NCBI GenBank assembly: GCA_029572955.1
Contig: JAKPQE010000118.1
Coordinates: 1-64,000 of the forward strand
Source of the DNA: Pseudomonadota bacterium
Lineage (GTDB): Bacteria > Pseudomonadota > Alphaproteobacteria > Rhizobiales > JAKPQE01
Direction of reading: 5' to 3'
Length of the DNA stretch: 64,000 nt
The notes under the pieces are model-generated. The model was not told the origin of the DNA, did not search any database, and saw only the letters and a program-made list of their open reading frames with translations. The first letter of the stretch is position 1; each line of letters starts with the position of its first letter. Both the position numbers and the translations under genes were made by a program. Positions 16,250 to 63,423 of the stretch are shown in pieces.

Positions 16250-16320
16250 GCGCGCCGCGGCCGGGCTTGGGCCGGAGGGGGCGCGCGCCGCGGCCGGGCT
16301 ACTGCCCGGCCGCGGCGCGC
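16250..16320. repeat. Very strong GC hairpin with an extra direct copy of its arm
   Basis: Positions 16283-16299 (17 bases) and 16304-16320 are perfect reverse complements around a 4-nt loop (TACT). A direct copy of the left arm lies at 16250-16266. The gap 16141-16431 between the SnoaL-like gene and tRNA-Val holds nothing else. It may be a bidirectional terminator or a REP-like element; no T-run follows on the plus strand. Confidence 0.75.
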
Positions 16321-16506: not shown

Positions 16507-17012
16507 TCCATGCATCCGTCCAACTCTCCCTCCCCCCGGCTCGCCCGTCACTGTCTCCGCCGTCTCGCCCGTCACCGTCTCCGCCGCCTCGCGCCTTCAC
16601 TGTGTCCGCCGTCCCGATCGTCACTGTCGCCGTCCCGATCGTCTCTGTCGCCGTCTCGATCGCGATCGTCTCGATCGCGATCGTCACTTCGCCTGCGTTC
16701 TGACGGTCACTCCCGCTCAGGCCACGTCCTTCCCTCGCCGTCCACCGGCGATCGGGTCGTTTGTCCGAAGTGATGAAACGCAGCCGCACAGGTTGAAGTG
16801 CGCCTGCGGAGGATGTAGCGTGGCCGCTTGGCCCGACCACGTGCACCCGGGCGACCGGACTCCCCGTCCGCTCTCCCGCCCGGTCCTGAAGGGTCCCCCT
16901 GCAGCCTCACGAGCGCAGGCCGCAGCGCGGAAACAGGGCGTCGACCGTCCCGGACGGACGACGCATCAGGCCAGAAGGCAACACGAACGACGGTTCACTG
17001 GAGGTGGACAGG
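16507..17012. other. 506-bp gap with low-complexity 21-bp repeats
   Basis: No convincing gene. A GTC/GCC/GATC-rich stretch (about 16540-16690) contains three tandem 21-bp units at 16608-16628, 16629-16649 and 16650-16670 (GCCGTCCCGATCGTC-type), then a further TCGATCGCGATCGTC copy at 16671-16685. Frames through it start inside the tRNA and have repeat-driven composition, so I do not call them. The acs promoter should be near the 3' end of this gap. Confidence 0.6.
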
Positions 17013-31519: not shown

Positions 31520-32050
31520 ATGGGCGATTTGTGGGTGTTCGGCTACGGCTCGCTGATGTGGCGGCCGGGTTTCGCCTTCGAGGCGGCGGTGCCGGCGCTG
31601 CTGCACGGTGCGCATCGGTCGCTCTGCGTCTACAGCCACGTCCATCGCGGCACGCCGGAGCGGCCGGGGCTGGTGCTCGGTCTCGACGCCGGAGGCTCGT
31701 GCCGCGGCGTCGCTTTCCGCGTCGCCGACGGGCAGGCGGACGAGACGGTCGCCTATCTGAGGGCGCGCGAGCAGGTGACGATGATCTATCGCGAGGCGGT
31801 GCGGCCGGTGCGGCTCGCCGACGGCAGCCGCGAACGGGTGGCGGCGCTCACCTATCTCGTCGATCCGACGCATCGGCAATATGCCGGCGTGTTGTCGCTC
31901 GAGGCGCAGCTTGCCCATGTCGCCGAAAGTGCCGGGCAGTCGGGTCCGAACCGCGACTACGTGCTGAATACCGTTGCCCATCTCGAGGAGATGGGCATCC
32001 ACGACAGCAGTCTCACGCGGATCGCCGAGCGACTGAAAAACGGGGCTTGA
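31520..32050 (+). CDS. ChaC-type gamma-glutamylcyclotransferase
   Basis: 176 residues from ATG 31520. Opens with the glutamyl-cyclotransferase loop WVFGYGSLMWRPGF, then GVAFRVADGQADETVAYLRA and EQVTMIYREAVRPV, whose first Glu is the expected catalytic residue. ChaC enzymes split glutathione to 5-oxoproline and Cys-Gly. Full length; convergent with the next gene. Confidence 0.93.
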   Translation: MGDLWVFGYGSLMWRPGFAFEAAVPALLHGAHRSLCVYSHVHRGTPERPGLVLGLDAGGSCRGVAFRVADGQADETVAYLRAREQVTMIYREAVRPVRLADGSRERVAALTYLVDPTHRQYAGVLSLEAQLAHVAESAGQSGPNRDYVLNTVAHLEEMGIHDSSLTRIAERLKNGA

Positions 32051-32080: not shown

Positions 32081-32428
32081 TCAGGCGGCGGAAATGTCGT
32101 CGATGACGCGGCGACGTTCCTCGCGGCTTTCGGCGAGGAGATGGATATGGGCGTCGGCGGCGCGGCGCATCCAGCTCTCGAAGGCGCGGCGGGCGCGCTC
32201 GGCATCGTTGGGCTCGCCGTCGAGGGCGCCGACCCAGATGATCTGGCGGGTACCGGACCCGCTCTTCTCGGAAAGAACGACGACCACGTCGCGGAAGGTC
32301 GGCAGATCGTCGAGGTCGACCGAACTGAAGAGATAACGCCGACCGGACGCGCCCTTGAGGTAACGGAACTTGTCGCCGAGGCCGGTGGCTTCGATCGTCG
32401 GGGGCGTGTCGAGGTCGATGGTCGTCAT
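32081..32428 (-). CDS. Small protein of unknown function, probable SOS gene
   Basis: 115 residues, ATG behind GGAG. Soluble, mixed alpha/beta: GLGDKFRYLKGASGRRYLFS, then FRDVVVVLSEK, IIWVGALDGEPNDAERARRA, ending in a charged helix (LLAESREERRRVIDDI). I do not recognise the family, although it looks like a conserved alphaproteobacterial protein. It is a single-gene unit (convergent with chaC, plsC ends 200 bp upstream). Its start is 21 bp downstream of a LexA-type box, so it may be induced by DNA damage. Confidence 0.75.
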   Translation of the reverse strand: MTTIDLDTPPTIEATGLGDKFRYLKGASGRRYLFSSVDLDDLPTFRDVVVVLSEKSGSGTRQIIWVGALDGEPNDAERARRAFESWMRRAADAHIHLLAESREERRRVIDDISAA

Positions 32429-32448
32429 GTCGTGCTCCGTTCCAGTGA

Positions 32449-32474
32449 GAACAAAAGTAGAACAACTTTTGTTC
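32449..32474 (-). promoter_or_regulatory. LexA-type box within a 10-bp inverted repeat
   Basis: On the minus strand the sequence is GTTC-TACTTTT-GTTC (32449-32463), matching the alphaproteobacterial LexA consensus GTTC-N7-GTTC. It is part of a longer perfect inverted repeat: GAACAAAAGT (32449-32458) and ACTTTTGTTC (32465-32474), spacer 6. It lies just upstream of the 115-residue gene. The rest of the 201-bp gap to plsC (32429-32629) shows nothing else. Confidence 0.65.
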
Positions 32475-32629
32475 CGGCGCAACTGGAAAACGTCTCACTT
32501 CCGATATGGCTTCCAAGCCCCGATTCTTGAAGGCAAATTGTGTTCAAATTTCCGTCAGGGGAAGGTGAGGCGGCATCGTCCGGCCTGTGGAAAGCCTGTG
32601 GACAATACGGGACTCGCGTGTGGCCGGCA

Positions 32630-33397
32630 CTATTTCGCGGCGCGGTTCTTCATGATCTCGACGGCCAGCGGCGGCGGGTTCGGCGCGGCGGCGGCCTCGG
32701 CGATCAGCCGGTCGGAGGCGGTCTCGATGCGTTCCTGGAGCGTTGCCAGGAACTCGTCGGTGGAAAGGCCCGGGCCGATCGGTTCGAGGAACTCCATGAC
32801 GACGGTGCCGGGATAGCGCAGGAACTTGCGGCGCGGCCAGAACAGGCCGGAATTGAGGGCGACCGGGACGACCGTCGCGCCGGTCTCGCGATAGAGGTGG
32901 GCGACGCCGTATTTGTAGGCGGGCTCGGCACCGGCCGGGCGGCGGGTGCCTTCCGGGAAGATCATGATCTGGCGGCCGCCGGCGATCTCCGCGACGGCCC
33001 GCTGGGTCATCGCCTTCAGCGCCACCGAGCGCTTGCCGCGATTGACCGGAATCTGGCGCATCTTCTTCAGATACCAGCCGAAACCCGGGATCCACATCAG
33101 CTCGCGCTTGAGGATGTAGGTCGGATCGGGAAACAGCGGCACCAGCGCGAAGGTCTCGAAGAAGGACTGGTGCTTGGCCGCGACGATATAGCCGCCGTCG
33201 GGAATGTGCTCGCGGCCGCGGATCTCGTAGCCGGTGCCGGCCAGCACCTTCTGCAGCCAGAGCGAGGAGCGGCACCAGCCGTGGATCCCGTTCCAGGCGA
33301 TCGAGCGCGGCACCAGGAGCGTCGGCAGGAGCACGATGATCCAGAAGGCGAGGTTCACGTAGAACGCCACGTTGAAGAGGATCGAGCGGAGAATCAT
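32630..33397 (-). CDS. plsC: 1-acyl-sn-glycerol-3-phosphate acyltransferase
   Basis: 255 residues. An N-terminal hydrophobic helix (ILFNVAFYVNLAFWIIVLLP) anchors it to the inner membrane. Acyltransferase motifs: AKHQSFFET (HX4D variant with Glu) at about 75-83, then IPVNRGK and IMIFPEGTRRPAG. It adds the second acyl chain in phosphatidate synthesis. Start ATG 33397. Confidence 0.93.
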   Translation of the reverse strand: MILRSILFNVAFYVNLAFWIIVLLPTLLVPRSIAWNGIHGWCRSSLWLQKVLAGTGYEIRGREHIPDGGYIVAAKHQSFFETFALVPLFPDPTYILKRELMWIPGFGWYLKKMRQIPVNRGKRSVALKAMTQRAVAEIAGGRQIMIFPEGTRRPAGAEPAYKYGVAHLYRETGATVVPVALNSGLFWPRRKFLRYPGTVVMEFLEPIGPGLSTDEFLATLQERIETASDRLIAEAAAAPNPPPLAVEIMKNRAAK

Positions 33398-53845: not shown

Positions 53846-53879
53846 ATAGCATGCTATGCAATTATACATAGCATGCTAT
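53846..53879. promoter_or_regulatory. Double-palindrome operator of the MarR regulator
   Basis: ATAGCATGCTAT occurs twice (53846-53857 and 53868-53879), each copy a perfect palindrome; together they form a 13-bp perfect inverted repeat. Centres are 22 bp apart, about two helical turns. A TATAAT on the minus strand (53861-53866) lies between them and is a likely -10 of the marR gene. Confidence 0.8.
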
Positions 53880-62787: not shown

Positions 62788-63423
62788 GGACGGCGGGCGA
62801 ACGATGTCCCGTTTCGGAACAGGAAGGTTAACGGTGCCGGCCGTCCGACGTCGTGCGCCGTCGCCGAACGGGGGTCGATCCGCCGGAGAGGCCCGCCGGG
62901 CACCAGATTTCGTGGGGACCAGAGGCGGAACATCGGCGACGAAGTGATTCGTCGACGATTCGTTCGCGCTACGGCCGAATGGTTAACGGCGCGGTCCAAA
63001 ACCGCCCCGGCCGAGGCTACCGAACGTTAACCATGTTCGAAGATCGCCGAGCCCCGCAACGGGGTTCACGATCCCGAGACAGGGCTGTGGCAAAGGTTAA
63101 CGGCAGAGCTCGAAATCGCCGGGCGCCAACGGTCGCCGATTCAACATGCGGTGGCCGAAAGGTCAGTGCGTGCAATATGTTGTGGCGAACAGAGTCCGAA
63201 TATCGGGCGAGTCAGTGATTCGGACAGGCTTTGTTCCGACTCTGTTCGAAAGGTAAAAAACCCGCGCGCCGGGCGTGTCTCTATGATACAGACGGAGCGC
63301 ATCGAGGCTTTCGGCAAGCGCCGAAACGGCAGCCGCCACCCCGGCGAAGACGGCAGGATCCCCGGCGTCTTCCCATGAGTTCCGCGCCCCCGGAATTGCG
63401 CGCAGCGAACATCCAGCGTCCCC
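62788..63423. other. 636-bp gap with repeated motifs before the helicase
   Basis: No gene supported. Four GTTAAC sites (62827, 62982, 63026, 63096), seven GANTC sites (62946, 62957, 63138, 63192, 63209, 63217, 63238), and nested inverted repeats at 63187-63248, including GTCCGAAT (63194-63201) and ATTCGGAC (63218-63225). GTTC-CGACTCT-GTTC (63233-63247) fits a LexA-type box. A short hairpin with an A-run (about 63257-63275) could be a terminator for the minus strand. Confidence 0.6.

Follow-up and report, generated by a model that had tools for sequence, protein, structure and literature searches.

Within the window, by which we mean the whole 64,000-nucleotide stretch of DNA analysed here, a pattern search places a LexA-type operator, GTTC-TACTTTT-GTTC (GTTCTACTTTTGTTC; 32463-32449, minus strand), ahead of a 115-residue protein gene on the same strand (32084..32428), an open reading frame with an ATG start that is backed by matches in relatives and by fold models. 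Both the box and the gene had been claimed from the sequence alone and are present as claimed; only the spacing needs correcting, the distance from the box to the ATG at 32428 being 20 bp rather than 21 bp. A probable ribosome-binding site, GGAG (32435..32438, minus strand), can be read 6 nt upstream of the ATG. The operator contains a predicted -10 element, TACTTT (32454..32459, minus strand), placed by an alignment of 41 promoters together with the sequence itself, and a predicted -35 element, TTGCGC (32477..32482, minus strand), stands 17 bp from it, with its TTG conserved across loci. Downstream lies a convergent ChaC-like gamma-glutamylcyclotransferase gene (31520..32047, plus strand; Pfam PF04752), and upstream, on the same strand as the gene, lies that of a PlsC-type acyltransferase (32630..33397, minus strand; Pfam PF01553). 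Rfam gave no match between 31900 and 33500 at the gathering threshold.

Taken by itself, the bare GTTC-N7-GTTC pattern is weak evidence, since its count in the window is not above chance: two occurrences against 1.55 expected, with two or more in 51 of 100 shuffles. The second occurrence, GTTCCGACTCTGTTC at 63233-63247 (plus strand), scores 8.1 on a matrix derived from orthologous boxes and is probably a chance match, as this lies below the ten top sites of the genome (all at 13.7 or more). The sequence-only reading had further presented the box as embedded in a perfect inverted repeat. A repeat search does find one at 32449..32474, its 10-bp arms GAACAAAAGT and ACTTTTGTTC separated by 6 nt in a 26-bp stretch; it is, however, peculiar to the window's own box (1 of the 41 forward boxes compared), the arm positions around those boxes pairing at a median of 3 in 10, and it adds nothing to the case. 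As a general feature, the inverted repeat is thus rejected as a second operator. Six further positions of the window also hold perfect inverted repeats with 10-bp arms. We note an inverted repeat with perfect 10-bp arms and an AT-rich centre at 53848-53877 (AGCATGCTATGCAATTATACATAGCATGCT), which could be an operator or a terminator, and two GC-rich perfect inverted repeats, at 16287-16316 and 16657-16683, that are possibly terminators.

The protein was found by sequence search in 29 of 61 genomes (its own and 60 relatives), and a profile search of the order recovered the family in 229 of 397 genomes, its own included. Across 387 genomes drawn from the class, the family profile matched nine. 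Three of these belong to the order, one of them the window's own genome, and six lie outside it; four of the six are bridge proteins to which we return below, and the other two are in G677 and G748. For the comparison of upstream regions, all 29 loci of the 61-genome search were combined with 34 others, one per further genus, taken from the best matches listed in the 397-genome search to the exclusion of weaker ones, giving 63 loci from 60 genera with the window locus included. Another collection supplied 14 loci, of which no fewer than five duplicate records in the set of 63; the 14 come from Stappia, a Rhodobiaceae MAG, Afifella, Prosthecomicrobium, Bauldia and other Hyphomicrobiales, along with a MAG named only as Alphaproteobacteria, and it is on their account that the order is called Hyphomicrobiales here. 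Across the 63 loci a chaC-like frame is convergent and downstream of the gene in 42, an NrdJ-type ribonucleotide reductase frame lies upstream in 25 and an acyltransferase-like frame upstream in 23, these being counts of BLAST clusters of open frames, in part overlapped by false frames, whose names were tested in the window (chaC, acyltransferase) and in L111 (NrdJ) only. This recurrent chromosomal place suggests that the gene has been inherited vertically.

A search for the same box upstream of orthologues, which the sequence-only reading had proposed as its check, finds it kept: an exact box in either orientation lies no more than 250 bp ahead of the protein match in 42 of the 63 loci (the window's included), and 40 of those 42 boxes are forward. 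Outside that upstream stretch these loci contain 12 sites over 222,432 bp, or 0.0135 per 250 bp, and the binomial tail for 42 of 63 is 6e-63, a figure that ignores shared descent. Widening the distance to 300 bp gives forward boxes at 41 of the 63 loci. In the other collection a forward box lies within 250 bp upstream at 12 of 14 loci; none lies within that distance in L137 (Stappia sp.) or L148 (Afifella marina). Cultured species with a box at the locus include Stappia sediminis (L139), Hongsoonwoonella zoysiae (L143) and Prosthecomicrobium hirschii (L147). It is this comparative evidence across orthologous loci that makes the box more than a chance occurrence. In one locus, L103, a second box (GTTCCTATTTTGTTC) lies 1372 bp ahead of the protein match.

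At the remaining 22 of the 63 loci a forward box within 300 bp is absent, and the gene can therefore exist without LexA-type control. Two of these 22 have reversed sites, one weak (L019, scoring 5.1) and one fair (L123, 18.2); furthermore, a near match at L092 scores 12.9, where the 41 forward boxes have a median of 26.6. Absence of the box clusters on the tree, with 12 label changes as against 23.6 when labels are shuffled, on a tree in which many forks are unresolved. Indeed, the box is missing from every member of one clade, which comprises seven f2 genera together with one f19 genome, and it is also absent from scattered loci elsewhere; within the clade the family may have a role that is independent of damage. 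The box-free loci of this clade that keep the gene are L014, L023, L094, L096, L099, L101, L102 and L113.

Alignment of the 41 forward boxes yields the consensus tGTTCTAtnTTTGTTCtc, often with an ATG next and with little else conserved beyond a TTGac that begins 19 bases before the box. That the flanks vary outside the TTGac, the box and the nearby ATG argues against simple shared DNA. A TTG stands at the -35 position (-21 to -17 from the box) in 37 of the 41 loci, compared with 17 of 246 control windows, and from this fixed position it follows that the box covers the -10 element of a promoter with a 17-bp spacer, of the form TTGac-N17-TAtnTT. In 21 of the 41 loci the first in-frame start codon comes only 1-2 bp after the box, which suggests leaderless transcripts for those orthologues; the window gene differs from them in having its GGAG ahead of the ATG.

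Elsewhere in the 3.76-Mb genome, GTTC-N7-GTTC occurs 74 times, against 35 for the pattern read backwards. The genome also encodes LexA itself, with lexA at C182:8283-8984 (minus strand) and a box at C182:9052. With a scoring matrix to which the other orthologous loci contributed their 40 forward boxes, the window box being left out, the window site ranks first of the 74 (24.0; median 2.7), a rank that is favoured by the matrix having been built from orthologues of the same gene. The ranking of classic SOS genes directly after it does not depend on the origin of the matrix: the next nine sites belong to uvrA/ssb (two sites), imuA, a PA0069-family radical SAM gene, parE, a DNA methyltransferase gene, lexA, a YifB/ComM-type ATPase gene (comM) and recA, as named by NCBIfam, with ImuA and the methyltransferase matching only below their cut-offs. 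The high-scoring boxes before the radical SAM gene (L129; G000 contig C87, site 151) and before the DNA methyltransferase gene (L132; C150, site 35890) make it possible that these two are further SOS genes of this genome.

On this comparative and genomic evidence, we consider it very probable that the gene is under LexA control. In the proposed mechanism, LexA bound to an operator lying over the -10 element of a sigma-70-type promoter would block RNA polymerase, and such a block of initiation is to be expected precisely because the operator overlies the -10. In response to DNA damage, RecA triggers the self-cleavage of LexA, releasing repression. Damage would then lead through LexA cleavage to the opening of this promoter and the making of a small soluble protein. 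For this gene, both the binding of LexA and the induction by damage are what we infer.

What that protein might do is less readily read from its sequence. Neither Pfam nor NCBIfam contains a family that the window protein matches, PADLOC and PHROGs returned nothing for it, and the other family members gave one-off weak matches only in these four resources; PF01541, the GIY-YIG family, was absent from the matches of the window protein and of the 63 family members scanned. Searched against the sequences of solved structures it reached a best E of 0.75, and phage records and plasmid records held no match. AlphaFold models (pLDDT 87.5 and 88.9) predict the elements E48-55, E61-69, H76-89, E92-96 and H102-114, in an order that fits the beta-beta-alpha-beta-alpha core of GIY-YIG proteins. 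VIA-align puts 1yd6, the GIY-YIG domain of UvrC, in first place for both models (Z 3.9, rmsd 3.3 over 66 residues; for the second model Z 4.1, rmsd 2.6 over 60 residues), a place that counts as tied because its lead over unrelated second rows (3.4 and 3.5) is less than 1 Z. For one model the same search also lists 1zg2 (UPF0213, a GIY-YIG protein) at Z 2.0, with the remaining rows similarly low, and Foldseek found no match below E 0.001 among PDB and viral models.

The link to GIY-YIG nucleases comes instead through nine bridge proteins, two of them near-identical (L185 and L186), that connect the two sides in profile comparison. The family-to-bridge profile score is 139.7 over 91 columns, where the highest of 60 shuffled decoys reaches 14.1 and the reversed control 18.2; between bridge and GIY-YIG the score is 35.0 across 20 columns, with decoys no higher than 15.4 and a reversed control of 11.6. 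Compared directly, family and GIY-YIG score 14.45, inside the decoy range (maximum 17.1) and not significant, so that homology to GIY-YIG depends on the bridge and, within it, on 20 columns only. One bridge is a relative from a Bradyrhizobium plasmid whose record is named 'GIY-YIG nuclease family protein'; its annotated start falls after the hairpin, and the in-frame reading extended upstream (P0001) shows the hairpin typical of the family followed by the GIY-YIG motifs. In most other bridges the hairpin lies inside their own open frames. The plasmid bridge protein had no match in viral contigs. As for its setting, bridge gene L151 (3046-3360) on the conjugative Bradyrhizobium barranii plasmid pCC829_3 is flanked by transposase genes and lies close to an integrase gene.

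It could be argued that the box is a LexA site and the likeness to GIY-YIG merely convergent, the fold being one not yet described; the non-significant direct comparison and the lack of significant Foldseek matches would both agree with this. The bridges, however, combine the family hairpin with GIY, YIG, Arg and Glu motifs, and in the family scan PF01541 is the top match for L182, L185, L186 and L194, and P0001 matches two GIY-YIG models, all below cut-off (L183, L188 and L190 gave no family match, and L189 and L192 weakly matched other families only). We accordingly regard convergence as unlikely and descent of the family from a GIY-YIG nuclease, as judged from these profiles, as probable. 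With the protein linked to a GIY-YIG domain through bridges, the gene is no longer wholly unknown: of the original description, which paired a LexA-type operator with a downstream gene whose function was unknown, the operator stands and the second part needs amending. All ten bridge-type loci lack a box within 350 bp, which indicates that the box goes with the eroded lineage; an eleventh row beside them, L187, belongs to the family itself and carries a reversed site.

The proposed erosion concerns the catalytic residues. An active GIY-YIG nuclease has the GIY and YIG motifs, a central Arg and a C-terminal Glu, according to the portions of PMC1564403 available to us. In a joint alignment the bridges hold the YIG Tyr in 8 of 9, the Arg in 8 of 9, the Glu in 5 of 9 and all three in 5 of 9. 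In the family, by comparison, the Tyr is present in a single row of 63, the Glu in 18 and an Arg at any position of the six-column block in 17, and no row of the 63 has all three. An active classical GIY-YIG nuclease is set aside on this last count. The family keeps, on the other hand, an N-terminal hairpin motif W-x-G-x-S-G-x-x-Y (W in 57, S in 61, G in 62 and Y in 62 of 63, with Leu replacing W in the window protein), the second His of an HxH strand (H96 column, 61 of 63 against 4 of 9 bridges) and a final Asp (D111 column, 62 of 63). Polar conservation of this kind would be unusual in a passive scaffold, and perhaps H96, D111 and the hairpin form a new nucleic-acid active site, making the product a LexA-controlled, GIY-YIG-derived protein that is nonetheless an enzyme. 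Given that the classical trio is never complete in the family and that fold and family searches gave no enzyme with such a residue set, we hold this to be improbable.

The reading that we prefer is of a LexA-regulon member of the Hyphomicrobiales that encodes an eroded GIY-YIG protein acting as a non-cutting accessory; taken as a whole, we give it about an even chance of being right. The protein would be a GIY-YIG descendant that has lost its cutting residues and retains the hairpin, the HxH strand and the final Asp, and it would work without cutting, by binding DNA or a repair complex as an SOS accessory, DNA binding and accessory role alike being what we infer. More speculatively, and with the chances against it, the product may be a new SOS effector in which the lost cutting site has been replaced by the conserved site (hairpin, H96, D111); a similarly tentative suggestion is that, across much of the Hyphomicrobiales, its targets are damaged or branched DNA, which it would either act upon or shield from the excision nuclease. 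Less plausible still is a LexA-controlled inhibitor of growth or division resembling SidA of Caulobacter, which a small single gene with a LexA-type box might bring to mind; we set it aside because hydropathy finds no membrane span (best 19-residue mean 0.82), and both the GIY-YIG link and the recurrent chromosomal neighbours speak against it. Finally, it is hardly credible that an AT-rich stretch matches the pattern by chance and that the gene lies outside the SOS regulon: the pattern is expected some 1.5 times in the window and 22 loci do without a forward box, but 42 of 63 carry a box at a fixed promoter geometry and the site has the top rank in its genome.

If the preferred reading is true, a widely kept and unrecognised SOS member exists in a large order that includes nitrogen-fixing symbionts, its breadth given by a family found in 229 of 397 order genomes and a box in about two thirds of the sampled loci. 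It would mean, furthermore, that a DNA-repair nuclease fold has been kept under damage control after its cutting residues were lost, and it would offer a direct test of whether nuclease relics act as scaffolds or regulators. Laboratory species can be chosen straight away with the help of this set of boxes and its fixed promoter geometry. The LexA regulon itself is known; what would be new is the eroded GIY-YIG lineage. We found no earlier description of the gene in the papers searched, figure tables aside. Erill et al. in 2004 (cited in PMC6473078) reportedly made a comparative study of LexA regulons in proteobacteria, and an earlier prediction of the window gene is possible, for example in that comparison or in figure tables. 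The gene is not named in the portions available to us of PMC12700426, PMC6473078, PMC8565304, PMC1564403, PMC5521853, PMC7835731, PMC7674921 or PMC3323433. Small and unnamed, it may well be, to judge by its sequence, a component of the DNA-damage response that has been overlooked.

Among known systems, SidA and DidA are membrane proteins, unlike the window protein with its lack of a membrane span, and Cho is an SOS-induced protein that cuts DNA. In the parts of the sources available to us, SidA is described as an SOS-induced division inhibitor (PMC12700426) and DidA as a division inhibitor induced after DNA damage (PMC4211646); the likeness to the window protein lies in small size and, on their side, in induction after DNA damage. 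Cho of E. coli, a UvrC homologue (PMC5521853, in part), resembles it as a GIY-YIG protein tied to DNA damage, whereas Cho has a C4 region and a C-terminal domain of its own (PMC1564403, in part) and the window protein is a single eroded domain. A further parallel, from the available portion of PMC8565304, is a GIY-YIG exonuclease of Bacteroidetes with a LexA-type motif, homologous to the proofreading subunit of DNA polymerase III; a GIY-YIG domain under predicted LexA-type control is common to both, and the phylum, the motif and the polymerase III homology set the two apart. With the GIY-YIG superfamily at large (UvrC N-domain, PF01541) the family has in common a predicted order of strands and helices, the link through the bridges and a UvrC domain as the first, though tied, VIA row, and it differs in never having the complete catalytic trio, in its extra N-terminal hairpin and in a direct profile match that is not significant. 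As to the alphaproteobacterial LexA regulon, the window gene falls outside the core named in section 7 of PMC3323433 (lexA, recA, dinB/polB, uvrA, imuA-imuB-dnaE2). It nonetheless carries the same direct-repeat operator, GTTC-N7-GTTC, that the available portions of two sources describe for alphaproteobacteria (PMC3323433) and for Caulobacter (PMC12700426), and that in this genome also stands before lexA, recA, uvrA/ssb, imuA, parE and comM.
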